Shown piece after piece: positions 30,487 through 55,852 of a stretch of 64,000 nucleotides of DNA. The stretch comes from Haloarcula mannanilytica (lineage in GTDB: Archaea; Halobacteriota; Halobacteria; Halobacteriales; Haloarculaceae). Within the stretch, counting starts at the first letter, position 1. Each line of letters starts with the position of its first letter. The DNA is taken from assembly GCF_005406125.1 (NCBI RefSeq), contig NZ_BIXZ01000006.1, positions 165,504-229,503 of the forward strand, read 5' to 3'. The notes beneath the pieces are model-generated. The model was not told the origin of the DNA. It saw only the letters and a program-made list of their open reading frames with translations, and did not search any database. Both the position numbers and the translations under genes were made by a program.

Positions 30487-30552
30487 CCAGTTCCCTGACT
30501 TGTGCAGTGCTGCGTCGCTTTCGCCGTCGATCACGGCAGGGACACTCAAAGA

Positions 30553-30675: not shown

Positions 30676-31773
30676 ATGACATATAGAGCAGGCATAATCG
30701 GAACGGGCGGTATCGCGGGAATGGGTATCCTCGGCATGCACGACGAGGACGAGATCGGTACAGAGAAGATTGAAGCGAGCCACGCCGGCGGGTACGCGAG
30801 TACCTCGGAAATCGAACTCGTCGCCGTCGCTGATGTCGACGAAGAGAAACTGGCGACGTTCGGTGACGCGTGGGATATCCCGGCGGATCATCAGTACGTT
30901 GGTCACGACGCGATGCTCGAAGCCGAAGACCTCGACGTGGTCTCGGTCTGTACGCCGTCGTTTCTCCACCACGAACATACGGTAGACGCCGCGCAGTCGG
31001 CGGCCGACCCGGATATCATCTGGTGTGAGAAGCCCATCGCCTCGCAGGTCAACGCCGCCGAGGAGATGATCGACGTGTGCGAGGCGACGGACACCGAACT
31101 CGTCGTCAACCACTCGTTTCGCTTTACCGACAAACTCCAGCGCCTGCACGATCTCATCAACGAGCGAAACCTCCTCGGCGAGGTCAAGTCGGTGAGCACC
31201 CAATACCGGATGGAACTGATGCGAAACTCCACGCACGTCCTGGACACGCTCGTCTATCTCCTCGATACCAGAGCCTCGGAGGTCAGCGGGTACATCACGG
31301 GTGAAAACGAAGCCGTCGATTCGCTGGATGCGGCCCAGGAGGTCGTCGACGCCGGTGGCGGTGGGCACGTGGTGATGGACGACGAGTCCTTCGTGACTGT
31401 CGATTGTACCATCCCGCGGGACATGTCCTCGATGACGCTGAACTTCATCGGCACCGAAGGGAAGCTGTACATGAACAACGACGACGGCGAGTGGCGTTAC
31501 TGGTCGCTTGAAGACGGCGAGCACACCGAGGAACCGCTGCCCGGAATCGAGGGCGCGTGGACCTGGGAAGACGATTACCAGCGGTCGTTCGCAAATGCGG
31601 CGACTCACGTTCAGGACCTGCTCAACGGCGAGTCCGAGAACTACTCGCCCGGCACCGAAGCCGTCAGGTCCCTCGAAATCATCGTCGGGTTCTACCTCTC
31701 ACACTACACCGGGTCGTCGGTGGACATCCCGCTGGCCCAGCCGCTTCGGGACATCTCCATCACGTCCTGGTAA
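30676..31773 (+). CDS. Gfo/Idh/MocA family NAD(P)-dependent oxidoreductase
   Basis: 365 residues. Rossmann motif IIGTGGIAGMG at the start, VSVCTPSFLHHEHT, and WCEKPIASQVNAAEEM, the E-K-P motif with the conserved Lys. The C-terminal alpha/beta domain is of the GFO_IDH_MocA_C type, with KLYMNNDDGEWRYWSLE in its sheet. Substrates are sugars, sugar acids or inositols. Beside GH105 and a sugar transporter it probably oxidises or reduces a released monosaccharide. Divergence toward the AKR gene is tail to tail. Confidence 0.88.
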   Translation: MTYRAGIIGTGGIAGMGILGMHDEDEIGTEKIEASHAGGYASTSEIELVAVADVDEEKLATFGDAWDIPADHQYVGHDAMLEAEDLDVVSVCTPSFLHHEHTVDAAQSAADPDIIWCEKPIASQVNAAEEMIDVCEATDTELVVNHSFRFTDKLQRLHDLINERNLLGEVKSVSTQYRMELMRNSTHVLDTLVYLLDTRASEVSGYITGENEAVDSLDAAQEVVDAGGGGHVVMDDESFVTVDCTIPRDMSSMTLNFIGTEGKLYMNNDDGEWRYWSLEDGEHTEEPLPGIEGAWTWEDDYQRSFANAATHVQDLLNGESENYSPGTEAVRSLEIIVGFYLSHYTGSSVDIPLAQPLRDISITSW

Positions 31774-31993: not shown

Positions 31994-32803
31994 TCAGTCG
32001 TCGAGCCACGGCGCGCCGTCGCGTTCGACGTACCGCTCGGTCCGCTCGATGGTCTCGATTCGCTCGATGTCTTCATCGTCGAGTTCGAGGTCCAGTGCGC
32101 CGAGGTTATCCCGAATGTGGGCCTCGCTCGTCGCCTTCGGCACGGCGCGGACGTTCTCACGCGAGAGCAGCCACGCGAGACTGATCTGTGGCGCGCTCAC
32201 GTCGTGTTTCTCGGCGATGGCCTCCACCTCCGGAATATCGAAGACATCACCGCGGGCCAGCGGCGAGTAAGCGACGTGGTAGTAATCGTGTTCCTGTGCG
32301 TGTTCGACGAGTTCGTCCTGCTGTAACAGCGGGTGGGTCTCCACCTGGTGGGCGAACAGCGGCGATTCGAGGGTGTCAATCGCTTCGTCGAGAAGTTCCG
32401 TACTGAAGTTACAGACGCCAACGTAATCAATCAGCCCGCGATCGACGAGTTCGTCGAACGCCGGCAGCGTCTCGGCGGCGTCGTAGTTCCCGACCGGCCA
32501 GTGGACGTACAGCAGGTCGAGTGAATCGAGACCCAGTCGGTCGAGAGTGACCTCCAGTCCCTCGATGACTTCGTCGTAAGCCAGCCCGAACTTCTCCGCG
32601 TGGACCTTCGAGGCGACGAACACGTCTTCCCGCGGGACATCGGCGCTGGCGATCCCCTCGCCGACGGCCTCCTCGTTGCCGTAGTACTGTGCCGTATCGA
32701 TGTGCTGGTAGCCCATCTCCAGGGCTGTCCGAACGCTCTCTGCGCAGACATCCGGGTCGGTGTTTTGCCACGTTCCGAGACCAAGGGCTGGTAGTTCGCT
32801 CAT
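31994..32803 (-). CDS. Aldo-keto reductase
   Basis: 269 residues from the ATG at 32803. The frame is open 27 bases further, but an AGAAATATG box 25-33 bases upstream of 32803 points to leaderless transcription from there. The AKR tetrad is complete: D36 and Y41 (HIDTAQYYGN), K66 (VASKVH) and H101 (LLYVHWPVG). Cofactor segment near the C-terminus: RAVPKATSEAHIRDN, like the IPKS motif for NADP. Typical substrates are aldehydes, keto-sugars or 2,5-diketogluconate-type acids. It lies 154 bases beyond the small protein that ends the transporter operon, same strand, with its own promoter. Confidence 0.88.
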   Translation of the reverse strand: MSELPALGLGTWQNTDPDVCAESVRTALEMGYQHIDTAQYYGNEEAVGEGIASADVPREDVFVASKVHAEKFGLAYDEVIEGLEVTLDRLGLDSLDLLYVHWPVGNYDAAETLPAFDELVDRGLIDYVGVCNFSTELLDEAIDTLESPLFAHQVETHPLLQQDELVEHAQEHDYYHVAYSPLARGDVFDIPEVEAIAEKHDVSAPQISLAWLLSRENVRAVPKATSEAHIRDNLGALDLELDDEDIERIETIERTERYVERDGAPWLDD

Positions 32804-32956
32804 ATACGAGAGGATACCAGCAACGCACATATTTCTTGTGATTACCCCTGATACGTCGGCCAGAGACGATGCTGCCGTCGGGCAGTGAAAAACGGATACT
32901 GGTTTGAAACGAGCGAGAGCGACACCTGTGACAGCGGTGTCCGATGCTCCCGAAGG

Positions 32957-33121: not shown

Positions 33122-33122
33122 C

Positions 33123-34274: not shown

Positions 34275-34278
34275 TGTA

Positions 34279-36140: not shown

Positions 36141-36215
36141 AGTGTTCGTATTAGCACAGCCCGTAGCCCGGGGACTTGTAGATTACTACGCGCGGTGTCG
36201 AAGGTCGGGGCACGC

Positions 36216-40104: not shown

Positions 40105-40110
40105 TTTATG
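40105..40110 (+). promoter_or_regulatory. TATA box of the first IclR gene
   Basis: TTTATG, centred 27 bases before the ATG at 40135. The ATG at 40108 lies inside this box and therefore cannot be the start of a leaderless message. Confidence 0.55.
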
Positions 40111-40134
40111 TCTGTCGGCGTGTTCCTGTCGTTT

Positions 40135-40902
40135 ATGGTTGACCAGCAGAACGCTAACGCTGTCAAAACAGCACAGACGACGTTCGAGATCCTAGAAGAG
40201 TTGAAGGACCGAAACGAAGCGACGTTAGCGGAGTTGACACAGGCGTTTGACCTGTCAAAGAGCAGTATCCACAACTACCTCACGACGCTGGAGGCGGACG
40301 GATACGTCGTCAAGGAGGGTGGTCGGTACAAGGTCGGCCTCCGACTACTCGATCTCGGCGGCCACGCACGACATCATGAACGGATATACGACATCGCGAA
40401 AGACGAGGTGGCGGCGTTGGCCGAGGAAACGGGCGAGCTGGCGAATCTCATGGTCGAACAGAAGGGGAAAGGGGTGTACCTCTACCGAACGCACGGTGCG
40501 GATGCAGTCAAGACGGATTCCTACACCGGACAGCGCGTGTATCTCCACAACACCGGTCTCGGGAACGCCATCCTCGCGCATCTCCCGCGCGAGCGTGTCA
40601 ATAAAATTATGGACACGCACGGGATGCCCGCAACGACGGAAAACACGATCACCGACCGGGAGGAGTTGTTCTCCCATCTCGAACAGGTTCGAGAAGCCGG
40701 GATCGCCTTCGACGATGAAGCCCGTGTCGAGGGACTCCGCTGTGTCGCGGTGCCCATCGTCAACAACAACAACACCGTCGAGGGAGCCATAAGCGTCTCC
40801 GGCCCGACCAGCAGATTCCAGGACGAGCGGTTCCGTGAGGAACTGCCTGCGAAGCTCAAAAGCGCAGCCAACGTAATTGAACTGAATATTACATACACGT
40901 GA
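40135..40902 (+). CDS. IclR-family transcriptional regulator
   Basis: 255 residues. N-terminal winged helix: FEILEELKDRNEATLAEL, recognition helix around SKSSIHNYLTTLEADGYV, then an IclR effector domain (about 80-250) ending SAANVIELNITYT. Paralogue of the regulator at 54205-54963. In haloarchaea IclR proteins control sugar degradation (XacR for pentoses in Haloferax volcanii is known). This one probably senses an intermediate of the adjacent GH105/ABC locus. Start chosen from TATA spacing. Recognition-helix residues differ from the paralogue, in line with the different operator dinucleotides. Confidence 0.9.
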   Translation: MVDQQNANAVKTAQTTFEILEELKDRNEATLAELTQAFDLSKSSIHNYLTTLEADGYVVKEGGRYKVGLRLLDLGGHARHHERIYDIAKDEVAALAEETGELANLMVEQKGKGVYLYRTHGADAVKTDSYTGQRVYLHNTGLGNAILAHLPRERVNKIMDTHGMPATTENTITDREELFSHLEQVREAGIAFDDEARVEGLRCVAVPIVNNNNTVEGAISVSGPTSRFQDERFREELPAKLKSAANVIELNITYT

Positions 40903-41843: not shown

Positions 41844-42173
41844 TCACACCATCCGATACACTTCGTCCATCCACTGGTCCTCCGAATCGACGAGGATCGG
41901 GTCCATCACCTCTCCCCATTCTTCTTGAGCCTCGCTGTTTGCCATGACCTCCTTGATCCTCTCGGCGTCTTCGACCGTCATAAACCCGAACACGTGGCCG
42001 TCTTTTTCGAACACGCTGTAGGTCTCGATTCCGGCCCCCGAATCGAGATACGCCGATTCGAGCGCGTCCGGCACGTCTTCGTGTTCCTCGCGGTATGCTT
42101 CGCGCTGGCCTTCTTTGATCCGAAGGTGAAACGCTATGCGTTCCATGTGTGCGCGTTCGGTAGCTCCTGACAT
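41844..42173 (-). CDS. rhaM: L-rhamnose mutarotase (RhaM family)
   Basis: 109 residues from the ATG at 42173, or 100 from the ATG at 42146 (MERIAFHLRI, the usual family start). The family motif is clear: from the second ATG the His in REEH is residue 22, the same number as the proposed catalytic His of E. coli RhaM, and ETYSVFEKDGHVFGFMTVED matches the central strands. It interconverts alpha and beta L-rhamnopyranose (possibly L-fucose) before oxidation. It is divergent from the lactonase gene with only 49 bases between, so the two probably share a control region. It is the best marker of the sugar this locus handles. Confidence 0.88.
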   Translation of the reverse strand: MSGATERAHMERIAFHLRIKEGQREAYREEHEDVPDALESAYLDSGAGIETYSVFEKDGHVFGFMTVEDAERIKEVMANSEAQEEWGEVMDPILVDSEDQWMDEVYRMV

Positions 42174-42222: not shown

Positions 42223-43092
42223 ATGTTCGATACGCATACGCACGCATGGGGCGCTGCGACCGAAGAACACCCGTGGGTGAACGGGCCGATACTGGACCTC
42301 GTCGATTCGTTCGACGTACATACCGTGTATACGGCCGACCGGCTCCTGGCGGATATGGACCGCAACGGCATTGACGACGCCGTCGTCGTCGGCTACCCGA
42401 TTTGTGATTGGACGGATAACTGGTACACACGGCAGGTCGCAGCCGAACACGACCGACTGCACGGCATCGTGATGCTCGATCCATTCGCCGAGGACGCGAC
42501 AACTCAACTGCGCGAGTGCATGCAGACAGAGGGTGTTTTCGGGTTCCGCCTCAGTGCGGCCTGTCCGTACGACCGGATGTGGGAGACATTCGACCCCAGC
42601 GTCTCCTGGCTCCGCGATGCGATTGCGGAGACCGAGTTCTGGGAGACGGCACTGGAACTGGATGCGACGGTCCAGATACTCTGTGACCACAGTCAACTCG
42701 ACCAGGCGCTGGAACTGGTCGAGACGTATCCAGAGCTGACGTATCTGTTCGACCATTTCGCCCACGCGGACCCAGAGACGCCGACGGACAACGGGACGTT
42801 CGCGCAGTTCGCCGAACTCGCCGAATACGAGACAGTTGCGGTGAAGGTGTCAGAAATCCCGCATATGTCCGACTCCGAGTTCCCCTACGCGGACATGCAC
42901 GACCACGTCCGCTGGTATCTGGACACGTTCGGCCGGGACCGCGTCATCTGGGGCTCAGACTACCCGAACGTCAGCGACGTGGCGAGTTACGCGGAAGCGC
43001 AAAACTGGCTTCGTGAGGTGGATTCAGTTTCGGCACAGGACCGCGAGTGGATAACGGACCGCTCGTTCCGACAGCACGTCGGCATCGAGTGA
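42223..43092 (+). CDS. Amidohydrolase-family sugar lactonase (L-rhamnono/fucono-lactonase)
   Basis: 289 residues from the ATG at 42223 (the longer open frame runs through the mutarotase start and is discounted). MFDTHTHAW gives the H-x-H metal motif (H5, H7). LFDHFAH in the middle and VIWGSDYPNVSD (metal-binding Asp) near the C-terminus complete the amidohydrolase-2 (COG3618-like) signature. Family members open L-rhamnono-1,4-lactone or L-fuconolactone to the acid. Next to RhaM this is the expected second step after oxidation at C1. Confidence 0.85.
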   Translation: MFDTHTHAWGAATEEHPWVNGPILDLVDSFDVHTVYTADRLLADMDRNGIDDAVVVGYPICDWTDNWYTRQVAAEHDRLHGIVMLDPFAEDATTQLRECMQTEGVFGFRLSAACPYDRMWETFDPSVSWLRDAIAETEFWETALELDATVQILCDHSQLDQALELVETYPELTYLFDHFAHADPETPTDNGTFAQFAELAEYETVAVKVSEIPHMSDSEFPYADMHDHVRWYLDTFGRDRVIWGSDYPNVSDVASYAEAQNWLREVDSVSAQDREWITDRSFRQHVGIE

Positions 43093-43102
43093 GATCAACC
43101 GC

Positions 43103-45283
43103 TTACGTCGCCAATAGCTCGATTGGATGACGTGGCTGTCGTTCCAGCAGGGCGTCGATCTGTTCGAGACAGGAGGTCCCGCTGGCGACCACGGCCCGCT
43201 CTTGGACGCCATCATCGCGCAGTTGCGTCCGGAGCCTGTCGCCGACATCCATGCTCAGTTCGTAGTAGTCGGACTTGTACCCGAAGCTCCCGGCCATGCC
43301 ACAACACTCCACGTCGGACGTGACCACGTCGTAGCCGCAGTCTTCGAGGACAGCAACGGTATGGGCTTCGAGCCCGAGCGTCCGCTGCTGGCAGTGGCTG
43401 TGGTACGCGATTTCGGCCCCCTCGACAGTCGACAGTGAATCGACGGACGCCCCGTTGTCGAGCAGTCCGAAGACGTACTCGAACACCTCGTAGCTGTTCT
43501 CCGCAATGTCGGTGAACGCCGCCTCGTCGAGCAGTCGCTCGTACTCGCGCGTGAACATCGCGTGGTCGCTCGGTTCGATGACGACCACGTCTCGGCCGTC
43601 CTCGATATGAGGAGCGAGCGACTCTGTGACTCGTTCCGCGTGGTCGGTCGCCGTTGAAATCATCCCCTGGGACAGCGGTGCGCGCCCGCTGGAGGGCGTC
43701 GGTGGAACCACCACGTCGACACCTAGCGATTCGAGGACCTTCACGGCGGCTTTGCCACGGTCGACCTGCACGTGGTTCGTGTACAGGTCCGGGTAGAGTA
43801 CCGCCCGGCGTTCGGGGTCCTCTACCCGTGAATCACGGGAAGCGGCCCAGTCGACGAGCGTCTCTCGCTCGAACGTCGGGAGGTCCCGACGCGGGTCGAT
43901 GTCCAAAATGCGGTCCATTGCCCGTCGAGAGAGGGTCGTCTCGGCCAGCCAGTTCGACACCGGGGCGGTGGCGCTGCCCAGTTTCGCAACGGTCTCGAAG
44001 TTCCCGAAAAAGCGCTTTTGCAGGGGCGCACCGTCCTCCTCTTCGTCGGGAGTGAGCCCGTCGACGAGCCACTCCCCAGGGGCGTCCTTGTCGCGGTTGA
44101 TCCGGTCCCGGACGACAGTGTTGATCCACGGGATGTCGATGCCGACCGGACAGGCGTTCACACAGCGCGTACACCCGGTACAGAGGTCGTTGAACTCCTC
44201 GGCCACGTCCAGGCCCTCGATGCCGGCTTCCCAGCCGGTCGCAATGCCACCCGAATACGTCTCCCCGCCGAAGGCGTGGCCGCCGACGCTCTGGAAGTTC
44301 GCACAGGAGTTCGAGCAGGCGGAACACCGGATGCAGTACAGCGTCTCCCTGAGGTGTTCGTCATCGCGGATCTCAAGCCGACCGTTGTCGATGAGCACGA
44401 GATGGAAATCGCGGTCGGAATCGAATTCTGATAGCGGCGTTTGGTCGTCGGTGAAATCGACGACCGGCGTATCGACCGGCGGGGTCAGCAGCGAGACGTA
44501 CGACGTGATGTCCTGGCCGGTCCCCGACCGACCGATGAGTTCGATAAAGGGATGCAGGTCCGAAACCGTCGGGATGACCTTCTCGACGCCGGCCACGGCG
44601 ACGTGTGTATCCGTCGCCGCGACTGTTTTGCGGGCGTTACCCTCGCTGGTGACCAGCGCCATCGTCCCGGTATCGGCCGTGATGAAGTTCGCGCCTGTGA
44701 TACCGACTTCCGCGTCGATGATCTGTTCACCCAGTTTCTCGCGGGCGAAACGGGTCAACTCCTCGGCGGTTTCCAGCGGTTCGTCGGGGTCGAACCGTTC
44801 GTTGAACAGTTCTGCGATGCTTTCGCGGGATTTGTGAATCGCTGGAGCGACGATGTGGGAGGGGGCTTCGTCAGCGACCTGCAACACCCACTCGCCCAAG
44901 TCCGTCTCGACCACATCCACGCCGTCTTCTTCGAGTGCGTCGTTGACCTCGATCTCCTCGCTCGTCATCGACTTGCTCTTAACGACCCGGTCGGCTGCTC
45001 GCTCGTCGACAACGTCGCGGATGTAGTCGTTCGCATCGGCGGCGTCGTCGGCGATATACACCGTCCCGCCGTTCGATTCGATGGTTTCGGTCAACTGGTC
45101 GAGAAGATTCGGTAGATCGGCGATAGCGTCCTCTTTGATACTCCGGGCGGCGCGTTTGAGGTCCTCGTAGTCTTCCAGGTCCGCCACAGAGTCATAGCGC
45201 CCCGCGTTGAATCCCTGCGTGTTTTCCGCGATTGCCGCTCCTTCCGTCCGCATCAGTTCGCGGAGTTCGTCGGCGGTCGCCAT
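43103..45283 (-). CDS. LutB-LutA fusion: iron-sulfur L-lactate oxidation protein
   Basis: 726 residues. N-terminal LUD domain (about 60-300), two 4Fe-4S Cys clusters (CIRCSACSNSCANF and CTGCTRCVNACPVG), then a C-terminal CCG domain with SHCQQRTLG and VECCGMAGSFGYKSD. This is LutB followed by LutA in one chain, whereas Bacillus has separate lutA and lutB. With LutC (two bases upstream) it should oxidise L-lactate to pyruvate and pass electrons to the membrane pool. L-lactate is one product of the diketo-hydrolase route for L-rhamnose, which explains its position in this locus. Confidence 0.88.
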   Translation of the reverse strand: MATADELRELMRTEGAAIAENTQGFNAGRYDSVADLEDYEDLKRAARSIKEDAIADLPNLLDQLTETIESNGGTVYIADDAADANDYIRDVVDERAADRVVKSKSMTSEEIEVNDALEEDGVDVVETDLGEWVLQVADEAPSHIVAPAIHKSRESIAELFNERFDPDEPLETAEELTRFAREKLGEQIIDAEVGITGANFITADTGTMALVTSEGNARKTVAATDTHVAVAGVEKVIPTVSDLHPFIELIGRSGTGQDITSYVSLLTPPVDTPVVDFTDDQTPLSEFDSDRDFHLVLIDNGRLEIRDDEHLRETLYCIRCSACSNSCANFQSVGGHAFGGETYSGGIATGWEAGIEGLDVAEEFNDLCTGCTRCVNACPVGIDIPWINTVVRDRINRDKDAPGEWLVDGLTPDEEEDGAPLQKRFFGNFETVAKLGSATAPVSNWLAETTLSRRAMDRILDIDPRRDLPTFERETLVDWAASRDSRVEDPERRAVLYPDLYTNHVQVDRGKAAVKVLESLGVDVVVPPTPSSGRAPLSQGMISTATDHAERVTESLAPHIEDGRDVVVIEPSDHAMFTREYERLLDEAAFTDIAENSYEVFEYVFGLLDNGASVDSLSTVEGAEIAYHSHCQQRTLGLEAHTVAVLEDCGYDVVTSDVECCGMAGSFGYKSDYYELSMDVGDRLRTQLRDDGVQERAVVASGTSCLEQIDALLERQPRHPIELLAT

Positions 45284-45285: not shown

Positions 45286-45804
45286 TCAGGCCCCCTCCTC
45301 GACGACGATAACGTAGACCGATTCTGGGCCGTGGGCTCCTTTGACGAGCGCGCCCATATCAGCCGTCGCGCTCGGCCCGGTAGCGATGATGGCGCTCCCG
45401 CCAGTATCGTTGAACCGCTCGTCCAGTTCTGCCACCGCCGCGTCCATATCTGGCTGGATGTCTTCCTCGTGAAGGATGGCGACATGGCGCTCGACGAACA
45501 GGCTCACGAGTTCGCTGGCCTCGTCAGTCATCGTCAGAACGAGTGAGCCGTAGTCTCCCACGCCGAGTTCGGCGCCGGTGACGCCGGTGGTCGCCTCGCG
45601 GAGCGCCACCGGCGTCGGGTCGACCGTTACCGGCGTCTCCGCGAGCGAAAACCCTTCCGCCCCCATCCCGTCGAGTGCCACGCCAACTGCGGGCTCTGTT
45701 ATCGCGTCCTCGATTGTATCCCCGAGTCCGGACTCGATTGTGCGTGTGACTGTCACACCCAATTCTTCGAGGGATGTCTCGAACGCCGTGCGTGTGTTTG
45801 CCAT
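45286..45804 (-). CDS. LutC-like LUD-domain protein
   Basis: 172 residues, a single LUD domain: TPVALREATTGVTGAELGVGD (split here for clarity: GVTGAELGVGDYGSLVL) and IIATGPSATADMGALVKGAHGP, the LutC signature with the terminal G-x-H-G-P. First gene of a two-gene minus-strand operon with the LutB-LutA fusion, two bases apart. Divergent from the sugar-binding protein gene at 46001. Confidence 0.88.
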   Translation of the reverse strand: MANTRTAFETSLEELGVTVTRTIESGLGDTIEDAITEPAVGVALDGMGAEGFSLAETPVTVDPTPVALREATTGVTGAELGVGDYGSLVLTMTDEASELVSLFVERHVAILHEEDIQPDMDAAVAELDERFNDTGGSAIIATGPSATADMGALVKGAHGPESVYVIVVEEGA

Positions 45805-46000: not shown

Positions 46001-47455
46001 ATGACAGACAAGAACACAGCACACGGACTGGACAGGCGTCAGTATCTGACAGGGGTCAGCGCTGCGATTGCCGCTGGCTTCGCTGGCTGTAGCGGCGGTG
46101 GAGACGGCGGCGACGGCGGCAGCGGTAACGGAGATGGAAACGGGGGCAACGGTGGTTCCGGAACACAAGACCTTGATTTCTGGTTGTTCGGTGGCATCCC
46201 GGCGGAACGGGAGTACATCAGCGGACACTACGACAGCTACGGCGACCACAACGTGAGCTATCAGCACCAGGAGTGGGGGCAGAAATACCAGATCATCGCC
46301 TCCGCCGCGGCCAACAACAACCTGCCGGACGTGATGGCGGGGCAGTGCCAGCAGATTCCCGACTACGTCGGTGCGCAGGCGATTCAGCCCCTCGACCAGG
46401 AACCGTTCCAGGACCAGCTCGAAGAGATTAACAGCCACTTCATCCAGGCTAACATCGACACGGTCGTCTACGAGGGGCTGGGCGACACCGACGGCGAGCG
46501 CCAGTGGGGGCTTCCCGGGGGCTACGCCGACCTCGGACCGTTTATCGACATCCGAACCGACTACCTCGAACAGACGAGCTTCGACCAGCCGCCGCGCAAC
46601 TGGCCCGAACTGATACAACTCGGCGAGGAGATGCAGGAAATCGACGATGTCTCGGCGGCCATCACCGCACCCGGAACCGACTTCGGACTGACGACCGGCT
46701 ACTTCATCGGGTTCGTGTACGCGAACGGCGGCCGCTACTTCGACCCCGAATCCATGGAGGCGACGGTCGACCAACCGGGCTTCGTCGACGCGGTGAAACT
46801 CTACCAGGACATCGCGGAGGCCGGCCTGTTCCCGGACTCGATGGCGGAGAACAACCACATCGACGCCGGTCGCCTCCTCCGGGAGGGCGAGTCGGGCATC
46901 TTCATTACGTACTCGCACGCGAACGCGGTGTACCAGACGACCGGTGCGCCACAGGAGTGGCTCGACGGCGAGGGCCACACCGTCACCCGCGCACCGCTCC
47001 CGGAGAACCCGTCGGGTGACTTCCAGCCACAGGACCTCCTGTTACAGAACGCACAGGGATTCATGCTGGGCAATGGCACCGAGAGCGACGCCGAACGACA
47101 GGCCGCCTTCGACTACACGAGCTGGTGGAACCAGCCCGAGCAGCTCGCGCCCTGGACCTACACCGCGGACGCTGACGTGGGTATCCGCGGACGGGTCCCA
47201 ACGCTTGAAAGCGCCTTCGAGGAGCCAAGCGACCTGTTCATGAGTCAGTTCGGTGACCTCGTTACGCTGTATGAGAACGACGACCTGTTCACCCGGACCT
47301 CGCGGTTCCCTTCGTTCTCCGGCATTGCTTCCATCCAGAGCATCATCAACACGCAGGTCATCCAGCCGGTCGTCCTCGGGAATGCGACCGCCGAAGAGGC
47401 CTGTAGCAACGCCAACTCCCAGGTGCAGGAAGTCGTCGACGAACAGATCGCCTGA
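46001..47455 (+). CDS. Sugar-binding lipoprotein, second CUT1 transporter
   Basis: 484 residues. LDRRQYLTGVSAAIAAGFAG then C shows Tat signal and lipobox. A Gly-rich linker (about 32-50) follows, then a family 1 solute-binding protein: LDFWLFGGIPAEREYI, AITAPGTDFGLTTGYFIGF. First gene of an operon with two permeases and an ATPase. The surrounding enzymes suggest L-rhamnose, a rhamnoside or another 6-deoxysugar as ligand. Confidence 0.9.
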   Translation: MTDKNTAHGLDRRQYLTGVSAAIAAGFAGCSGGGDGGDGGSGNGDGNGGNGGSGTQDLDFWLFGGIPAEREYISGHYDSYGDHNVSYQHQEWGQKYQIIASAAANNNLPDVMAGQCQQIPDYVGAQAIQPLDQEPFQDQLEEINSHFIQANIDTVVYEGLGDTDGERQWGLPGGYADLGPFIDIRTDYLEQTSFDQPPRNWPELIQLGEEMQEIDDVSAAITAPGTDFGLTTGYFIGFVYANGGRYFDPESMEATVDQPGFVDAVKLYQDIAEAGLFPDSMAENNHIDAGRLLREGESGIFITYSHANAVYQTTGAPQEWLDGEGHTVTRAPLPENPSGDFQPQDLLLQNAQGFMLGNGTESDAERQAAFDYTSWWNQPEQLAPWTYTADADVGIRGRVPTLESAFEEPSDLFMSQFGDLVTLYENDDLFTRTSRFPSFSGIASIQSIINTQVIQPVVLGNATAEEACSNANSQVQEVVDEQIA

Positions 47456-47505: not shown

Positions 47506-48432
47506 ATGAGTTACGTAGACCAAGCCCAGTCGTCGTACCGCAACGTGACCAGATACATCCCCGAGAGTCTGCGGGTGTATCTCCCGATCCTGCCCGTGAT
47601 GGCGTTAGTCGGGCTGTTCATCCTCTATCCCATCGCGCAGGCCATCTACTCGAGCTTTTTCACCAAGAGCCTCCTCAGGCCCAGTGAAGCCGAGTTCGTG
47701 GGCCTCGCGAACTACGTCGAAATCTGGACAGACCCGGACATCCACCAGGTGCTCTGGAACACGTTCGTCTGGGTGACTGTCGGTAGCCTGGCCGCAATCG
47801 TCCTCGGGTTCCTGATGGGATGGCTTCTCAACGAGAAACTCCCCTATACGAGCGTCGCCAGCGCTATCGTCCTGATTCCGTGGGTCCTTCCGCGGGTGGT
47901 CGGGGCGTCAATCTGGCAGTTCATGTTCGGCGGGTCCCAGGGTATCGTGAACGAACTCCTCGTCCAGCTGGGCGTCATCGACGAGTACATCGTCATGCTC
48001 GGGGCGACTGAGTACTCCCTGTGGCCGCCGATTATCGGGATGATTTGGCGGCTCGCACCCTTATTCGCACTCCTCACGCTGACTTCGTTGCAGGGTATCG
48101 ACGAGCACCTTTACGAAGCCGCGCGGATGGACGGGGCGACGCCGTGGGAGCAGTTCCGCTACATCACCATCCCGATGATGAAGTACAACCTCGCCATCGG
48201 CTTCCTCCTGATGCTCATCTACAACGTCCGGAACTTCTCGATGGTTTGGGTGATGACCAAGGGCGGGCCCGGCGTCTCCAGCAGCACGCTGCCGGTGATG
48301 ATATACCGCGCCGCGTTCATCGACTTCGAGGTCGGGTTCGCCTCGGCCCTGTCGGTGTTGCTGTTCGTCGTGCTGCTCGTGTTCTCGTACTACTACATCA
48401 AGTTCTACGACAAAGTCAGAGGTGAAATGTAA
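47506..48432 (+). CDS. Sugar ABC transporter permease (MalF/UgpA-like)
   Basis: 308 residues, six membrane segments, EAA loop DEHLYEAARMDGATPWEQFR near residue 205. Follows the binding protein by 50 bases. Its stop overlaps the next permease start (TAATG). Confidence 0.92.
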   Translation: MSYVDQAQSSYRNVTRYIPESLRVYLPILPVMALVGLFILYPIAQAIYSSFFTKSLLRPSEAEFVGLANYVEIWTDPDIHQVLWNTFVWVTVGSLAAIVLGFLMGWLLNEKLPYTSVASAIVLIPWVLPRVVGASIWQFMFGGSQGIVNELLVQLGVIDEYIVMLGATEYSLWPPIIGMIWRLAPLFALLTLTSLQGIDEHLYEAARMDGATPWEQFRYITIPMMKYNLAIGFLLMLIYNVRNFSMVWVMTKGGPGVSSSTLPVMIYRAAFIDFEVGFASALSVLLFVVLLVFSYYYIKFYDKVRGEM

Positions 48433-49397
48433 TGGCGACAGACAACTCAGATCCGACGGCGGAGTACAGACGGAACCAGTCGTGGCTCTACGACTCGAAA
48501 ACGGGCGGATACGTCCGGAAAACTGCTATCGGCCTGCTGACGCTCGTTATCGGTGTGTTCGTCCTGTTTCCGCTGTACTGGATGGTCGCCACAGCGTTCA
48601 AGACGACGGCCGAGATACAGCAGATTCCGCCAACGGTGTTTCCGGAGAATCCGTCGTTTGAGGGGTTCAGGCTCGTCATTGAGTCGTCGATTCAGGCCGG
48701 CGGCTATGCGGGGCTGGTGAACGACCTGCTCGGGATTACCGTCACCTCCGCCATCGACATCAATCTGCTCGCCCTCATCGTCAACAGTCTGAAGGTCGCC
48801 GTCGGTGCGGGGCTTATCGCCGTCATCCTCGGCACTGGGGCGTCGTACGTGCTCTCGCGACGGGAGTTCCGCGGGAAGAACCTGCTGATGTCACTCCTGC
48901 TCGCCTCGCTGATGTTCCCCGGGACCGCCATCATGGTGCCCGAGTGGGAACTCATTTCGACGCTTGGCCTGTTCAACACGCATCTCGCGCTCATCCTCAT
49001 CTACGGCGCGATGACTGCGCCGTTCGTCGTCTGGCTGATGAAGGGCTTTTTCGATGACTTCCCGGACTCGATCATCGAGGCCTCACAGATCGACCAGTGC
49101 ACCCCCTTCGAGACGTTCTGGTACGTGCTGGTCCCGATGGCGCGAAACTCGCTGATTGCGTCGTTCATCTTCGCGTTCCTGCTGGCGTGGAACGAACTGG
49201 TGTTCGCGCTCACGCTGCTTGACAACTCGAAATTCACGGTGCCGCCCGGCCTGCTCACGTTCGTCCAGGGGTTCAACACCCAGTGGAACGTCGTCGCAGC
49301 GGCGTCGATTATCGTCTCGATTCCAGTGCTGGCCGGACTGGCATACATCCAGCGGTACTTCGTGCAGGGCCTGACCGGCGGTGCAATCAAGGGCTGA
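48432..49397 (+). CDS. Sugar ABC transporter permease (MalG/UgpE-like)
   Basis: 321 residues, six membrane segments, an EAA-like loop PDSIIEASQIDQCTPFETFW near residue 220, with Asp/Gln-Cys replacing the usual Ala/Gly residues of the loop. It keeps the general D-x3-EA pattern. One extra predicted extracellular stretch (about 75-105) separates the first two membrane segments. Translationally coupled to the first permease. Confidence 0.92.
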   Translation: MATDNSDPTAEYRRNQSWLYDSKTGGYVRKTAIGLLTLVIGVFVLFPLYWMVATAFKTTAEIQQIPPTVFPENPSFEGFRLVIESSIQAGGYAGLVNDLLGITVTSAIDINLLALIVNSLKVAVGAGLIAVILGTGASYVLSRREFRGKNLLMSLLLASLMFPGTAIMVPEWELISTLGLFNTHLALILIYGAMTAPFVVWLMKGFFDDFPDSIIEASQIDQCTPFETFWYVLVPMARNSLIASFIFAFLLAWNELVFALTLLDNSKFTVPPGLLTFVQGFNTQWNVVAAASIIVSIPVLAGLAYIQRYFVQGLTGGAIKG

Positions 49398-49456: not shown

Positions 49457-50623
49457 ATGACACACCTCGAGCTTGATAGTGTCAAGAAAGTGTTCGGCGA
49501 CCCGGAGAAGGAGGGGGTCGTCGCGGTAAACGACTTAGACATCGACGTGCCAGACGGTGACTTCCTCGTGTTGCTTGGCCCCAGCGGGTGCGGGAAGACG
49601 ACGACGCTCCGGATGATCGGCGGGCTCGAAGACCCGACGGAAGGCGAAGTCCGGTTCGATGGGACCGTCGTCAATGATGTCAAAGCCCGGAATCGCGACG
49701 TAGCGATGGTGTTCCAGGACTTCGCACTGTACCCGCACATGACCGTCCGGGAGAACCTCGGGTTCGGACTCCGCCGTGAGAACAACGACATGACTGACGC
49801 GGAGATCAACGAGCGCGTGACAGAGGTCGCTGAGATGCTCGAAATCGAGGAGTTGCTGAACAACAAGCCGGCACAGCTCTCGGGCGGCCAGAAGCAACGC
49901 GTCGCGCTCGGACGGGCAATTATCCGTGAACCGCGGCTGTTCCTCTTCGACGAGCCGCTGGCGAACCTCGATGCGAAACTGCGAAAGACGATGCGGACCG
50001 AAATCGACGAACTCCAGTCGGAAGTCGGCATCACGTCGGCGTACGTCACGCACAACCAGGAGGAGGCGATGACAATCGCAGACAAGATAGCGATTCTCGA
50101 CGACGGGGAACTCCAGCAGCTCGGGACGCCGGATCAGGTATTCAACGAGCCAGCAAATTTGTTCGTTGCGCAGTTCGTCGGGAGCCCGGACATGAATCTG
50201 TTCGAGGGGGCGCTCAGTGAACGGACCGACTCGTACCGTATCGAGATGGATGTCGCCTCCTTCGATATCCCGAAGCGACTCGTCGATACGGAGATAGACA
50301 CGCAGGACGTTCTCGTCGGGTTCCGTCCGCAGGACCTCTATCAGGCACGTACCCGAGCGACGGACGGTCCCGACTTCGAGACACAGGTCCGTGTGGTCGA
50401 ACCGGTCGGGACTGAAGCAATCGTCCACGGCACGTCTGCCCTCGGCGACGTGACCGCGAAGGTCGGCCGCTTCCATGATCTCGAACCGGACGACCAGATG
50501 GAACTGACAATCGCTCCGGAGCACATTTATCTCTTCGACCCAACTACCGAATCGCTACTGAAAGGTCGCCTCGTCACCGAGCGAGCAGAGGGCGGGGCGT
50601 CAGCCGATAGCGTCGAAGCCTAG
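49457..50623 (+). CDS. Sugar ABC transporter ATP-binding protein (CUT1)
   Basis: 388 residues from the ATG at 49457. Walker A GPSGCGKTT, VFQDFALYPHMTV, signature LSGGQKQRVALGRA, Walker B LFLFDEPLANLDA, H-loop YVTHNQEEAM, C-terminal TOBE/OB domain with VLVGFRPQDLYQA. The frame remains open 174 bases upstream into the permease gene, but MTHLELDSVKKVFG matches the family's usual start and is preceded by a TATA-like TTTATATTG near 49427-49435. Confidence 0.92.
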   Translation: MTHLELDSVKKVFGDPEKEGVVAVNDLDIDVPDGDFLVLLGPSGCGKTTTLRMIGGLEDPTEGEVRFDGTVVNDVKARNRDVAMVFQDFALYPHMTVRENLGFGLRRENNDMTDAEINERVTEVAEMLEIEELLNNKPAQLSGGQKQRVALGRAIIREPRLFLFDEPLANLDAKLRKTMRTEIDELQSEVGITSAYVTHNQEEAMTIADKIAILDDGELQQLGTPDQVFNEPANLFVAQFVGSPDMNLFEGALSERTDSYRIEMDVASFDIPKRLVDTEIDTQDVLVGFRPQDLYQARTRATDGPDFETQVRVVEPVGTEAIVHGTSALGDVTAKVGRFHDLEPDDQMELTIAPEHIYLFDPTTESLLKGRLVTERAEGGASADSVEA

Positions 50624-50649: not shown

Positions 50650-51681
50650 ATGAAAGCAATCGTTCAAACCGGTCCACGGGAAGTCGAGACACAGGACAGA
50701 GAGAAACCGACAGTAGAATCCGACGAGGTACTCGTCAAAGTCCACACGGCAGGCCTCTGTGGGAGTGACGCACACGCCTACAAGTATGACGGCGGCTACG
50801 AGTGGATCCCGATTCCGCGGATCATGGGCCACGAGTACTCCGGCAAAGTCGTCGAGGTCGGCGATGCTGTCGAGGGATTCGCCGCGGGCGACAACGTCAT
50901 CGAGGAGCCGATCCACGACTGCGGGCACTGCTTTCAGTGCAAGAACGGGCAGCCAAACGTCTGCCAGAACTTCTCCATTACGGGGATGCACCGAGATGGC
51001 GCATACGCTGAGTACGTCACAGTCGCACCCGAGCACCTCCATGCCGTCCCCGAGGACGTACCGCTACGGCAGGCAGCCGTCACGGAGCCGCTAAGCATCG
51101 CAACGCGGGCAGTGCTCGAACAGTCGGTGACGACGCCCGGCGACAACGTGCTGGTCGAAGGCCCGGGTCCTATTGGGGTGCTGGTCGCCGCTGTCGCGGA
51201 TTCACTCGGTGCGAACGTCCTGGTTTCCGGTCTCGACCAGGACGCGGTGTACCGGCTCCCACTCCTCAATGACCTGGGTATCGACACGATGAACGCCCAG
51301 TCAGAGGATCTCGAAGCACAGGCCGAAGCCCGCACGGACGGTATCGGGTTCGATGTCGTGTTCGACTCGACCGGACACCACTCCGGTATCGGCACAGCAA
51401 TCGAACACGTCCGGAAGGGTGGACAGGTAGTCATGGTCGGGATTCCAAACGACACGAGCGAAGTCACGTTCACGTCCACGGTTCGTGGCGAGGTCGATGT
51501 CAACACGTCCTACGGCTCGACGTGGACGAACTTCGAACAGGCGCTTCGACTGATGGAGCGAGGCGAAATCGCCGTTGAAAAGATACTGGACACCTCCTAC
51601 GGCATGGATGACCCTGCGGCAGCCTTCGAGGCGTTCCTCGCCTCCGAGACCTGCAAACCGGTGTTCCAGTTCGGCGACTGA
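50650..51681 (+). CDS. Zinc-dependent medium-chain alcohol dehydrogenase
   Basis: 343 residues. Catalytic zinc residues C37, H61 and E62 (LCGSD, GHEYSG), structural zinc cysteines C91, C94, C97 and C105 (CGHCFQC...C), NAD fold VEGPGPIGVLVAAVADSLGA. Similar to sorbitol and threonine dehydrogenases. It follows the transporter ATPase by 26 bases and precedes the dehydratase. In the rhamnose route it could oxidise L-rhamnose at C1 or, more likely for this family, the C4 hydroxyl of 2-keto-3-deoxy-L-rhamnonate. Which one is not settled by sequence. Confidence 0.88.
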   Translation: MKAIVQTGPREVETQDREKPTVESDEVLVKVHTAGLCGSDAHAYKYDGGYEWIPIPRIMGHEYSGKVVEVGDAVEGFAAGDNVIEEPIHDCGHCFQCKNGQPNVCQNFSITGMHRDGAYAEYVTVAPEHLHAVPEDVPLRQAAVTEPLSIATRAVLEQSVTTPGDNVLVEGPGPIGVLVAAVADSLGANVLVSGLDQDAVYRLPLLNDLGIDTMNAQSEDLEAQAEARTDGIGFDVVFDSTGHHSGIGTAIEHVRKGGQVVMVGIPNDTSEVTFTSTVRGEVDVNTSYGSTWTNFEQALRLMERGEIAVEKILDTSYGMDDPAAAFEAFLASETCKPVFQFGD

Positions 51682-51815: not shown

Positions 51816-53021
51816 ATGGAAATCACAGACATCTCAGCGACGAAAGTCAGCAACGAGTCGTGGGGGGAGTTCATCGAGTTCCCACTCGTCACGATCATGT
51901 CGAAGTACGACGAGTACCGCAACGTCGACGGTGAGAACCCGCAGGCCCGCCGGAAGTGGATGGGGCCGGTCGGCGACGTGGTCGTCGAAGTAGAGACTGA
52001 CGCGGGCATCACCGGGGTCGGCGTCGGCAACTGGGGCACCGGTGCCATCGCCACCGTCGTCGAAGAAACGCTCTCGAAGATCGTACTCGGTGAGGACCCG
52101 ATGCGACGCGAACATCTCTGGGAGCAGATGTACCGCGCGACACTGCCCTTCGGGCGGAAAGGCGTCGCCGTCATGGCGATCAGCGCTGTCGACCAAGCGC
52201 TGTGGGACATCGCCGGTAAGGAAGCCGGAAAACCTGTCTACGAACTGCTCGGCGGTCCCACCACTGACGAGATCCCCGCCTACGCATCGAACCTCCATCC
52301 CGTCGATATGGAGAAGCTAGAACGCGAGGCCCAGGAATACGCCGAGGCGGGCTTCGACGCGATGAAACTGCGCTTCCTCCATGGTCCCGAGGACGGTCGT
52401 GCCGGTATGGAGAAAAACGAGGAAATCGTCAAGACCGTTCGGGACGCAGTCGGCCACGAGATCGACATCGCTGGCGACGCATACATGGGCTGGTCGGTCA
52501 AGTACGCGAAGAAGATGACCCAGCGCCTGGCGAAATACGACATGGCATGGGTTGAGGAGCCGGTCATCGCCGACGACATCGACGGCTACGCCGAGGTCCG
52601 TGAGGCCGCGCCGATGCCCATCTCCGGCGGCGAACACGAATTCACGCGCTGGGGCCACGAGGACCTGCTCGAAGAGGAGGCTGTCGACATCCTCCAGCCC
52701 GACGTGGGCCGTGTTGGCGGTATCACGGAACTACAGAAGGTCGCGGACATGGCCGAAGTCCACGACGTGCCGGTGATCCCCCACGCCGGGACGAATCCGA
52801 CGCTCCACGCCATCGCGGGGCACACGAACATGCCGATGGCGGAGTACTTCCCGACGCCCGAGTGGTTCCAGGAACAGCAAGAAGAGCAGGATTCGACCTA
52901 CGCCGACGCCATCTTCCAGAACCCGCCCTCGCCGGAAGACGGCTCGATTCCGCTGCCCGACGAACCCGGCCTCAGCACGCAATTGAACCACGACGCGCTT
53001 GACCACTTCGCCGTGGAGTAA
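51816..53021 (+). CDS. L-rhamnonate dehydratase-like enolase-superfamily enzyme
   Basis: 401 residues. Metal ligands D221 (IAGDAYMGWS), E247 (AWVEEPV) and E273 (SGGEHEFTRWG), with D296 (LQPDVGRVGG) and H323 (VIPHAG) forming the His-Asp pair and K184 (AMKLRF) near the active site. GEHEFTRWG, QPDVG-x-x-GGITEL and HGPEDGRAG match L-rhamnonate dehydratase (RhmD) segments as recalled, and the N-terminal MSKYDEYR matches its substrate cap. Converts L-rhamnonate to 2-keto-3-deoxy-L-rhamnonate. A promoter-like GGTTTTACTG lies near 51768. L-fuconate or L-lyxonate could be alternative substrates. Confidence 0.87.
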   Translation: MEITDISATKVSNESWGEFIEFPLVTIMSKYDEYRNVDGENPQARRKWMGPVGDVVVEVETDAGITGVGVGNWGTGAIATVVEETLSKIVLGEDPMRREHLWEQMYRATLPFGRKGVAVMAISAVDQALWDIAGKEAGKPVYELLGGPTTDEIPAYASNLHPVDMEKLEREAQEYAEAGFDAMKLRFLHGPEDGRAGMEKNEEIVKTVRDAVGHEIDIAGDAYMGWSVKYAKKMTQRLAKYDMAWVEEPVIADDIDGYAEVREAAPMPISGGEHEFTRWGHEDLLEEEAVDILQPDVGRVGGITELQKVADMAEVHDVPVIPHAGTNPTLHAIAGHTNMPMAEYFPTPEWFQEQQEEQDSTYADAIFQNPPSPEDGSIPLPDEPGLSTQLNHDALDHFAVE

Positions 53022-53024: not shown

Positions 53025-54059
53025 ATGAGCAAGGACATCAAATTCGAGTACAACGTGCCTGTCTTCGCCGGTGCCCCCGATGCCGGTGACGACGAGCCTG
53101 TGCACCGTGATACGCCCGAATACGAGGCGCTAGACTGGGAGACGACAAAGATGGGTATCGAGACGGCCGAAGAACTGGGCTTCGATGCCGCGTGGGCACC
53201 CGACCATCTGATGCTCGGCCGCGACCGCGCCGAGTACGAGTGCTGGACGCTGCTGTCGGCGATGGCCGGGTTCACTGACGACATCAACCTCGGCTCACTC
53301 GTCCTCTGCAACGACTACCGGAACCCGGCGCTGGTCGCGAAAATGGCCGCGACCCTCGATGTCATCTCCGAGGGCCGCCTCGAACTCGGTCTGGGGGCCG
53401 GCTGGCACGAACCGGAGTACGAGGCCTACAACTGGGAGTACCGCGACGGGTTCGAGCGGTTGATGCGCCTTGATGAGTCCATTCGGCTGATGAAGCGGAT
53501 GTGGGACGCCGGGGGCGACGGCGCGAGCTTCGACGGCGACCACTACCAGATTTCTGACGCCCCGTGTGCCCCCACGCCCGTGCAGGACCCTCACCCGGAG
53601 ATTCTCGTCGGCGGTCAGGGCGAGCAGGTGACGCTCAAACTCGTCGCCAAACACGCCGACGTGTGGAACACGGACGTGTTCAACGGCGATGTCGAGACAC
53701 TCGAACACAAGACCGGGGTCATCGAAGACCACTGTGAGACTGTCGGCCGCGACCCCGACGAGATAGAGTACTCCTGGGACGGTCACGTCATCTGTACGCG
53801 GGACGAGGAGAAGTTCGACCGGCTCGTCGACCTGATGACGCCCATCCAGTTCGAGGAGGAGTACCAGGACCAGGCACCGATTGAAACTGAATCGGATGCC
53901 CGCGAGTTCTTCATCATGGGAACGCCCGAAGAGTGTGCTGAGGCCATCGAACGCCGGATCGACGCCGGCGTCACCAAGTTCCAGTGTTGGTTCATCGACT
54001 TCCCCGACACGAGTGGGATGGAACTGTTCGCTGACGAGGTCATGCCTCAGTTCCAGTAA
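53025..54059 (+). CDS. Luciferase-like (LLM) oxidoreductase, probably F420-dependent
   Basis: 344 residues with the LLM TIM-barrel features: GFDAAWAPDHLMLG, NPALVAKMAATLDVIS, GRLELGLGAGWHEPEYEAY and PEILVGGQGEQVTLKLVAKHAD. The close subfamilies in archaea and actinobacteria use coenzyme F420, and one well-known member, F420-dependent glucose-6-phosphate dehydrogenase, oxidises a sugar at C1. It starts three bases after the dehydratase stop, so it is part of the catabolic operon. No other C1 dehydrogenase of known type is in the locus, so this may oxidise L-rhamnose to its lactone. FMN use is the alternative. Confidence 0.85.
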   Translation: MSKDIKFEYNVPVFAGAPDAGDDEPVHRDTPEYEALDWETTKMGIETAEELGFDAAWAPDHLMLGRDRAEYECWTLLSAMAGFTDDINLGSLVLCNDYRNPALVAKMAATLDVISEGRLELGLGAGWHEPEYEAYNWEYRDGFERLMRLDESIRLMKRMWDAGGDGASFDGDHYQISDAPCAPTPVQDPHPEILVGGQGEQVTLKLVAKHADVWNTDVFNGDVETLEHKTGVIEDHCETVGRDPDEIEYSWDGHVICTRDEEKFDRLVDLMTPIQFEEEYQDQAPIETESDAREFFIMGTPEECAEAIERRIDAGVTKFQCWFIDFPDTSGMELFADEVMPQFQ

Positions 54060-54204: not shown

Positions 54205-54963
54205 ATGAGCACCACCGTGCCGGTCAAGGCGGCGAAGATCTCTCTCGAAATCGTGGAGATACTGCGGGAGCGAAACGGCGCTGGCGTGTCCGAGATTGCC
54301 CGAGCAGTGGACAAGCCGACCAGTACCGTTCACGACCACCTCCAGACGCTTGAGCAGGAGGAGTACCTCGTCAAAGAGGGGACCGAGTATCACGTCAGTA
54401 CCCGGTTCCTCCAGCTTGGGAATCAGGCGCGGTCGCGCAAGAAAGTGTACGAAATCGCCCGACCGGAAGTCGACGAGCTGGCGGAAAAGACCGGTGAACA
54501 CGCAAATCTGATGATCGAAGAACACGGCCTCGGGGTGTTTCTGTACAAAGCTCGCGGGCCTGATGCCGTCCAACTGGATACCCACGCTGGGATGCGCGTC
54601 CCGCTGCAGACGACCGCGCTCGGGAAGACGATCATGGCGTTCCGCCCGCGCTCGGAAGTCGAGTCGTACCTCGACAGACACGGCATGCCGGAGATAACGG
54701 AGCGGAGTATCACGGACAGGGAAGAACTGTTCGAGACACTCGATCAGGTGCGGGAGCGCGGCTACGCCTACGACGACGAGGAGCGGGTCAAAGGCATGCG
54801 GTGTCTGGCTGCACCGATTACGGATCAGGACGACCGTGCAATCGCCGCGGTCAGCGTCTCCGGTCCGAAAAGCCGAATGCAAGGAGATCGGTTCTCTGAG
54901 GAAATCCCGGAACAGATCCTCCGCAGTGCGAACGTCATCGAGGTGAACCTCACGTACTCGTGA
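54205..54963 (+). CDS. IclR-family transcriptional regulator, second copy
   Basis: 252 residues. Winged helix with recognition region PTSTVHDHLQTLEQEEYL, then the IclR effector domain ending SANVIEVNLTYS. Alignable end to end with the regulator at 40135-40902. It lies inside the L-rhamnose locus, between the LLM gene and the FAH hydrolase gene, and so is the likely regulator of that locus, with a 6-deoxysugar or sugar-acid effector. The upstream palindrome suggests it also controls itself. Confidence 0.9.
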   Translation: MSTTVPVKAAKISLEIVEILRERNGAGVSEIARAVDKPTSTVHDHLQTLEQEEYLVKEGTEYHVSTRFLQLGNQARSRKKVYEIARPEVDELAEKTGEHANLMIEEHGLGVFLYKARGPDAVQLDTHAGMRVPLQTTALGKTIMAFRPRSEVESYLDRHGMPEITERSITDREELFETLDQVRERGYAYDDEERVKGMRCLAAPITDQDDRAIAAVSVSGPKSRMQGDRFSEEIPEQILRSANVIEVNLTYS

Positions 54964-55009
54964 CGACCAAGCACAACAGTTAGGTACCCGGCCACTGCAG
55001 TCTTCGGTG

Positions 55010-55852
55010 ATGCAGTTCGCCCGCTATACGACTGATGGAACCCCCCAGTGGGGGATCCGTCAAGACGACGAGATCGTACCGCTCAACGGCCTCAGAGAGG
55101 ATGTCACGTACCAGCAGCTCACTGATCCAGGGTTCCTTCGAGTCGTCGAAGACGCCGTCGACGCGGCGGCGGACCGAGCGATTCCCGTCGAAGACGCCAA
55201 ACTACTCGCACCTGTTCCCCAGCCCGGGAAAATCGTCTGTGTCGGGCTGAACTACCACGACCACGCCGAGGAACAAAACGAGGAGGTCCCGGAGCGGCCG
55301 CTGTTGTTCGGGAAGGCCGGCACCGCGGTCACGAACCCCGGCGACCCGATTGTCCACCCGGCGGCCATCGATGAAGTCGACTACGAAGTCGAACTCGGCG
55401 TCGTCATCGGTCGGACCGCGAAGGATGTCCCCGCGGCAGACGCCCGCGACTACGTCGCTGGCTACACCGCAGTCAACGACGTGAGCGGGCGGGACGCGCA
55501 GTTCGAGGACGAACAGTTCTTCCGCGGGAAGAGCTACGACACGTTCGCCCCGATGGGGCCGACGCTGGTCCCCGACAACGAACTTGACCCGTCGAGCCTT
55601 GACGTGGCCTGCCGCGTGAACGGCGAGACCAAGCAGTCCTCGAACACAGAGGAGTTCATCTTCGATGTCTCGGAAGTCGTCGAGTACATCAGCGGCATCA
55701 CCACACTCCGCCCCGGCGATGTCATCTCGACGGGGACACCGGGCGGCGTCGGTATCTTCCGTGACCCGCCGGAACTACTCGAACCCGGAGACACTGTCGA
55801 CGTTGAGATCGAAGGGATCGGGACCCTGACGAACCCAGTTGTCGGCGAATAG
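55010..55852 (+). CDS. Fumarylacetoacetate hydrolase-family 2,4-diketo-3-deoxy-L-rhamnonate hydrolase
   Basis: 280 residues from the ATG at 55010 (a GTG codon lies directly before). FAH-fold metal ligands E126 and E128 (VDYEVELG) and D157 (AVNDVSGRD), the NYHDHAEE segment (80-87) and K174 (FRGKSYDTFAPMGP). Ends with RPGDVISTGTPGGVG, typical of the family. In the diketo-hydrolase route this enzyme splits 2,4-diketo-3-deoxy-L-rhamnonate into pyruvate and L-lactate, which matches the LutABC-type genes in the same locus. Family members also handle other acylpyruvates, so substrate assignment is contextual. Confidence 0.87.
   Translation: MQFARYTTDGTPQWGIRQDDEIVPLNGLREDVTYQQLTDPGFLRVVEDAVDAAADRAIPVEDAKLLAPVPQPGKIVCVGLNYHDHAEEQNEEVPERPLLFGKAGTAVTNPGDPIVHPAAIDEVDYEVELGVVIGRTAKDVPAADARDYVAGYTAVNDVSGRDAQFEDEQFFRGKSYDTFAPMGPTLVPDNELDPSSLDVACRVNGETKQSSNTEEFIFDVSEVVEYISGITTLRPGDVISTGTPGGVGIFRDPPELLEPGDTVDVEIEGIGTLTNPVVGE

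Follow-up and report, generated by a model that had tools for sequence, protein, structure and literature searches.

A luciferase-like oxidoreductase gene accompanies the L-rhamnonate dehydratase gene in haloarchaeal rhamnose operons and may encode an F420-linked enzyme

Introduction

What does a luciferase-like (LLM) oxidoreductase do in an operon for sugar breakdown? The question is raised by a 64,000-nucleotide stretch of the Haloarcula mannanilytica genome (contig NZ_BIXZ01000006.1, positions 165,504 to 229,503; hereafter the window), in which an LLM gene at 53025-54059 on the plus strand starts three bases after the stop codon of an rhcD-type gene for L-rhamnonate dehydratase. An initial annotation of the window drew attention to this junction, and it is real: the LLM gene is an intact open reading frame (ORF) with an ATG start, encoding a protein of 344 residues that scores 176.7 bits against PF00296 Bac_luciferase (gathering score 27.9). 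The same annotation proposed that the enzyme, through likeness to the F420-dependent glucose-6-phosphate dehydrogenase FGD, oxidises an unphosphorylated 6-deoxyhexose at C1. Oxidation of sugars at C1 is known LLM chemistry, represented by FGD and FSD (PMC8498797, PMC6279831).

The LLM gene is linked to rhcD

In the haloarchaeal rhamnose operons that we sampled, the LLM gene almost always stands next to rhcD, the gene for L-rhamnonate dehydratase. A search of genome contigs with the LLM protein returned 47 loci (loci and genomes carry L and G numbers below), of which 29 cover all or the greater part of it at 79-96% identity; L047, 80% identical over residues 286-344 only, was excluded from these. 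In 27 of the 29 loci the gene immediately preceding the LLM gene, in the same orientation, is rhcD, and in 26, where both genes were placed by the gene caller, the gap is -4 to +10 bases; the pair of L026, missed by the gene caller, was taken from tblastn. The two loci without rhcD are L023, where a mutarotase gene adjoins the LLM gene and no rhcD occurs within the sampled stretch, and L027, a second LLM copy matched over residues 35-344. This second copy, at L027:10001-10933 in Halocatena marina, is likely a decayed duplicate, and its counterpart in G084 contains an in-frame TGA.

Presence and absence of the two genes follow the same pattern, with the proviso that these counts are drawn from related genomes and are not independent. 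Among 116 genomes of the family, a close LLM gene (at least 79% identity) and rhcD (E<=1e-120) are both present in 13, neither is present in 103, and in no genome does one occur alone; eight further genomes of the 116 have only an LLM relative of 42-48% identity. Eight of 15 Haloferax genomes have both genes, the same eight for each, and seven have neither. Among plasmid records, rhcD at 69.8% identity or more occurs in 19, and an LLM gene of at least 79% occurs in the same 19. An RhcE-type MDR (68-100% identity) was likewise found in all 28 LLM genomes searched for it. Away from the window, rhcE, rhcF, the transporter and the regulator are variable and can be inverted, moved or missing from the sampled stretch. 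We regard the linkage of the LLM gene to rhcD as a firm and surprising finding; chance is excluded as the source of the original observation, since the arrangement is conserved.

An rhc operon with one enzyme left over

Homologues of RhcC, RhcD, RhcE and RhcF in the window are 82-94% identical to genes so annotated in Haloarcula pelagica (Table 1), which identifies the sugar operon of the initial annotation as a nearly complete haloarchaeal L-rhamnose (rhc) operon. Mutarotase, lactonase, dehydratase, RhcE, RhcF and LudBC steps all have homologous candidates here, from the mutarotase through to lactate oxidation, and what is left over is the LLM enzyme on one side and the C1 oxidation step on the other. 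The mutarotase and the lactonase-type amidohydrolase had been overlooked, as had the Gfo/Idh, AKR and GMC oxidoreductases upstream. The zinc MDR that had been reported is indeed present and matches RhcE, the other dehydrogenase step of the pathway; because it is assigned to this later step, elimination within the operon makes a stronger case than the initial annotation had shown, and the LLM enzyme is the sole unassigned enzyme of the operon proper.

In its rhcC, rhcD, rhcE and rhcF homologues, IclR-family regulator and ABC transporter, the window resembles the rhc operon of Haloferax volcanii, which Reinhardt et al. are said to have described in 2019, and an LLM orthologue in a protein cluster that takes its name from this species is 88% identical to the LLM protein of the window. 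The difference lies in the C1 step: Haloferax has an SDR named L-rhamnose 1-dehydrogenase, whereas the window genome yields no match to that type (E<=1e-50).

Candidates for C1 oxidation of rhamnose

The initial annotation stated that no SDR-type rhamnose dehydrogenase is present, and this holds for the operon. No SDR was found among the window operon genes scanned with Pfam, and the genomic search just mentioned, made with the SDR found behind rhcF in Halorubrum and Haloferax as its type (query L003:12879-13652), found a relative in 11 of the 28 LLM genomes and no match in 17 at the same threshold (the genomes of L023 and L027, the latter being also that of L015, were not among the 28). The 17 genomes without a match favour the reading of the initial annotation. 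The statement does not extend to SDRs of another type elsewhere in the genome. The SDR behind the LLM gene in Halopiger (L082:16589-17368) has two unlinked relatives in the window genome, at 64% and 57% identity, and SDRs of this L082 type occur at 50% identity or more in 18 of 22 genomes, the count omitting six Haloferax genomes from the 28. The Halopiger SDR itself scores 184.2 bits against the model for the L-rhamnose 1-dehydrogenase Lra1, below its cut-off of 400, and its best model is a broad glucose 1-dehydrogenase subfamily (231.9 bits, cut-off 215).

These unlinked SDRs weigh against the LLM protein as the C1 enzyme, as do several further observations. The Haloferax SDR beside rhcF (L005:12994-13791) falls, at 96% identity, in an NCBI protein cluster named L-rhamnose 1-dehydrogenase [Haloferax], a database name that may go back to the 2019 work, and Haloferax retains the LLM gene beside this SDR. 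All eight Haloferax genomes with rhcD have both enzymes (the eighth SDR lies in L078); the SDR follows rhcF in seven of them, and in G142 some 12.5 kb separate it from the LLM gene. Because the LLM gene is kept next to the named SDR, a role in C1 oxidation is not established, and it may have another; the elimination argument, sound within the operon, is weakened by the named SDR and by the unlinked ones. The Gfo/Idh, AKR and GMC oxidoreductases of the window, and other SDRs, could also oxidise C1. Finally, the partner of the LLM gene is rhcD; it has no such tie to the lactonase or to a C1 enzyme.

Several of these points favour a rival explanation, in which an F420-linked LLM enzyme serves a step outside the published pathway and SDRs carry out C1 oxidation throughout. 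The LLM enzyme would then take as its substrate something that RhcD forms or consumes, be it a by-product or an alternative 6-deoxyhexonate, or would perform a repair reaction. The joint presence of LLM and SDR in all rhcD-bearing Haloferax genomes, the tight junction with rhcD itself and the wide occurrence of the L082-type SDR speak for this explanation, as does the position of distant LLM genes near enolase-superfamily genes (L031, L096). Against it, and in favour of the LLM enzyme at C1, stand G116, G128 and G138, which have neither a Haloferax-type SDR (E<=1e-50) nor an L082-type SDR above 45%; G116 carries L001 (Haloarcula japonica), whose LLM protein is 96% identical to that of the window. 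We know of no such step. Taken by itself this explanation is rather unlikely, and it is nearly as likely as C1 oxidation of rhamnose by the LLM enzyme.

Sequence family and cofactor

Among NCBIfam models the LLM protein is best matched by TIGR03560 (F420_Rv1855c), a subfamily whose name several of its orthologues bear, at 228.4 bits, 3 below the curated cut-off of 231.4 (the next model scores 170); the score falls short of membership, and we therefore call the protein TIGR03560-like. Against the FGD model the protein scores 62.1 bits (cut-off 420), it falls on a separate branch from FGD (3b4y, 5lxe), and it lacks several FGD residues, so that membership of the FGD family was rejected.

A maximum-likelihood tree of 45 rows (ten PDB references entered as partial chains; L030, not returned by the gene caller, is absent) separates a group of the F420 enzymes FGD, fHMAD, Adf and Mer, a branch of three monooxygenase references, of which 3rao is only putative, with support 100/98, and a third branch, that of the LLM family, whose support, 94/83, is not strong. 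Members of this third branch come from haloarchaea, Thaumarchaeota, Chloroflexota, Thermomicrobiota and Actinomycetota. The initial annotation had named placement in a flavin monooxygenase branch as evidence against its proposal. Such a placement is not clearly seen: the family has a branch of its own, but lies on the monooxygenase side under midpoint rooting, a rooting used for drawing only.

The residues are mixed. D39-H40 and G178 of FGD are retained as D60, H61 and G199, as in all five F420-type references and none of the three monooxygenases. H40, W44 and E109 are the catalytic residues of FGD; W44 is a gap in the LLM protein and E109 is replaced by W127, the residue of the monooxygenase references, while G197 is shared with the monooxygenases and Adf. 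Bacterial luciferase also has a His at the place of H40, so the D60-H61 pair is a weak indication and no proof of F420. The phosphate-binding triad of FGD (K198, K259, R283) is not kept, the LLM protein having D222, a gap and E294; this is expected if, as the initial annotation supposed, the substrate is unphosphorylated. Structure prediction, suggested there as a check, gave a confident model (mean pLDDT 93.7) that does not separate the F420 from the FMN (flavin mononucleotide) class, the enzymes of both classes being tied in the comparison (VIA scores: Mer 34.4, tied; Adf 33.4; FGD 33.0-33.2).

Genomic co-occurrence with the F420 gene cofD favours F420 without proving it. The window genome encodes cofD at 365.6 bits (cut-off 257.45), and the gene is above cut-off in 16 of 18 genomes (the window genome and 17 with distant LLM relatives), compared with 3 of 14 well-known control genomes. 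Of 300 Chloroflexota genomes, 185 have an LLM relative (E<=1e-35), and cofD (E<=1e-60) is present in 163 of these; it is present in 39 of the 115 without one, an odds ratio of 14.4 from related genomes that are not independent. Use of F420 by the LLM enzyme is moderately supported, indirectly, by this co-occurrence and by D60, H61 and G199. Weighing against it are the position of the LLM family outside the F420 dehydrogenase/Mer group, the W44 and E109 positions, two of the 18 genomes without cofD above cut-off, and 22 of the 185 Chloroflexota genomes with LLM relatives and no cofD; because of these 22 exceptions and the mixed residues, FMN is still a possible cofactor.

It is on FMN that a second rival turns, in which the LLM protein would resemble SsuD, SfnG or the sulfoquinovose monooxygenase in being FMNH2-dependent; its substrate would be a sugar, substituted or sulfonated, that is imported with rhamnose. 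Its W127 matches the monooxygenase references. The protein differs from SsuD/SfnG/RutA-type monooxygenases in its separate branch and in the D-H pair, which the three references lack and which, with G199, it has in common with the F420 references; its structure scores as well with Mer, and nearly as well with Adf and FGD; and the flavin reductase partner characteristic of such monooxygenases was not seen, no flavin reductase domain being found by Pfam among the operon genes scanned. We judge this explanation improbable. Still less credible is a role as a second 2-keto-3-deoxy-L-rhamnonate 4-dehydrogenase, which would fit both the position of the gene behind rhcD, the enzyme of which would supply the substrate, and the oxidation of secondary alcohols by F420-type LLM enzymes such as Adf and fHMAD (1rhc; PMC8498797), but for which the RhcE-type MDR of all 28 genomes already covers the step.

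Several more distant haloarchaeal relatives (38-48% identity) are found in sugar clusters: L093 lies beside Gfo/Idh dehydrogenases with GH9 and GH31 genes, and L092 beside an SDR, an AKR and a GlcNAc-2-epimerase-like gene. Some of the LLM group may therefore serve haloarchaeal sugar breakdown alongside NAD(P) dehydrogenases. Relatives L032 and L034 adjoin peptidase genes, and no sugar gene was seen among the three neighbours scanned of the Caldilineaceae relative L035. In L031 (6406-8606) a second LLM gene is followed directly by an enolase-superfamily gene, a further LLM-dehydratase-type pair outside the rhc operon, and in a Thaumarchaeota bin (L033:5876-7892) two tandem LLM genes stand behind a transketolase-type gene.

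Other features of the window

Features of the operon and its surroundings are collected in Table 1. The ORF at 40108-40902, with its PF01614 domain and its match to IclR structures, encodes a second IclR-family regulator and not an SDR.

Table 1. Coordinates of the rhc operon and nearby oxidoreductase genes in the window.
Feature	Position	Strand	Basis
GMC oxidoreductase	23874..25409		
Gfo/Idh oxidoreductase	30721..31773		
AKR oxidoreductase	31994..32716	-	start uncertain
Second IclR-family regulator (not SDR)	40108..40902	+	PF01614; IclR structures
L-rhamnose mutarotase	41844..42146	-	PF05336 rhaM 59.1 bits vs 23.4
rhcC-type L-rhamnono-1,4-lactonase (amidohydrolase 2)	42223..43092	+	PF04909; 82% to annotated rhcC, Haloarcula pelagica
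LudB/LdhH-type L-lactate oxidation iron-sulfur protein	43103..45283	-	LUD + Fer4 domains; NF045670 452.1 bits, below cut-off 800
LudC-type LUD-domain protein	45286..45804	-	PF02589
Sugar ABC transporter substrate-binding protein	46001..47455	+	PF13416/PF01547
ABC transporter permease	47506..48432	+	PF00528
ABC transporter permease	48432..49397	+	PF00528
ABC transporter ATPase	49457..50623	+	PF00005
Zinc MDR, matches RhcE	50650..51681	+	ADH_N/ADH_zinc_N; 87% to annotated rhcE, Haloarcula pelagica; best match 68-100% in 28/28 genomes searched
rhcD-type L-rhamnonate dehydratase (enolase superfamily)	51816..53021	+	PF13378/PF02746; 94% to annotated rhcD, Haloarcula pelagica
LLM (luciferase-like) oxidoreductase, TIGR03560-like, close rhcD partner	53025..54059	+	PF00296; TIGR03560 228.4 bits; rhcD directly upstream in 27/29 loci
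IclR-family regulator, rhcR position	54205..54963	+	PF01614/PF09339
rhcF-type 2,4-diketo-3-deoxy-L-rhamnonate hydrolase (FAH fold)	55007..55852	+	PF01557; NF053535 220.6 bits, below cut-off 500; 85% to annotated rhcF

Upstream of the operon, 26579-37661 holds a pectin/rhamnogalacturonan-type set with GH88, a DUF4147/MOFRL protein (glycerate-kinase type), a 435-residue protein (29179-30486), the Gfo/Idh and AKR genes and a second sugar ABC transporter. In Haloferax and Halorubrum loci the Gfo/Idh protein, conserved at about 80%, is encoded beside the mutarotase, and the GMC oxidoreductase, which also lies close to the rhamnose operon, may be a further sugar oxidase. Alpha-L-rhamnosidase genes occur near the rhc loci L011, L019, L025, L029 and L080-L082, and in Haloarcula pelagica a second cluster beside rhc (L079:20192-31023), with an aldehyde dehydrogenase, an FAH hydrolase, an MR/MLE enzyme, an ABC transporter and an SDR, is perhaps for another sugar acid. 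Positions 1-24000, which include an NAD-dependent epimerase (20770-21798), resemble a surface-sugar island; the G+C content rises from 50-55% over these 24 kb to 57-63% beyond. At 61220-63747 two adjoining ORFs (403 and 439 residues) look like related solute-binding lipoproteins.

Discussion

As the best single mechanism, though not an established one, we tentatively favour F420-linked oxidation of L-rhamnose at C1 by the LLM enzyme, alone or beside an SDR. We infer that the enzyme would pass a hydride from a compound of the rhamnose pathway to the deazaflavin F420, the most likely substrate and site being unphosphorylated L-rhamnose at C1; the resulting lactone would be taken over by the lactonase RhcC, and F420H2 would be re-oxidised elsewhere. 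In species that also have the Haloferax-type SDR, which we label RhcB, the two enzymes would work in parallel. A broader proposal, that rhamnose breakdown in haloarchaea depends on F420 at one obligate step, where the LLM enzyme next to RhcD uses it to oxidise unphosphorylated L-rhamnose or an intermediate of the pathway, is plausible if short of probable. It would provide the first sugar substrate for F420 in haloarchaea and a sugar-oxidising LLM lineage separate from FGD.

A 2021 review of the Haloferax volcanii annotation states that to its authors' knowledge no more than one F420-dependent enzymatic reaction had been reported in halophilic archaea, and calls the importance of F420 in these organisms enigmatic (PMC8305020). 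The rhamnose pathway, treated as solved, has an enzyme without an assigned role which many genera keep together with the dehydratase, and the rhc operon offers a concrete, genetically tractable test of the role of F420 in haloarchaea. If the LLM enzyme does use F420, this would give a little-understood cofactor a clear metabolic role in salt-loving archaea.
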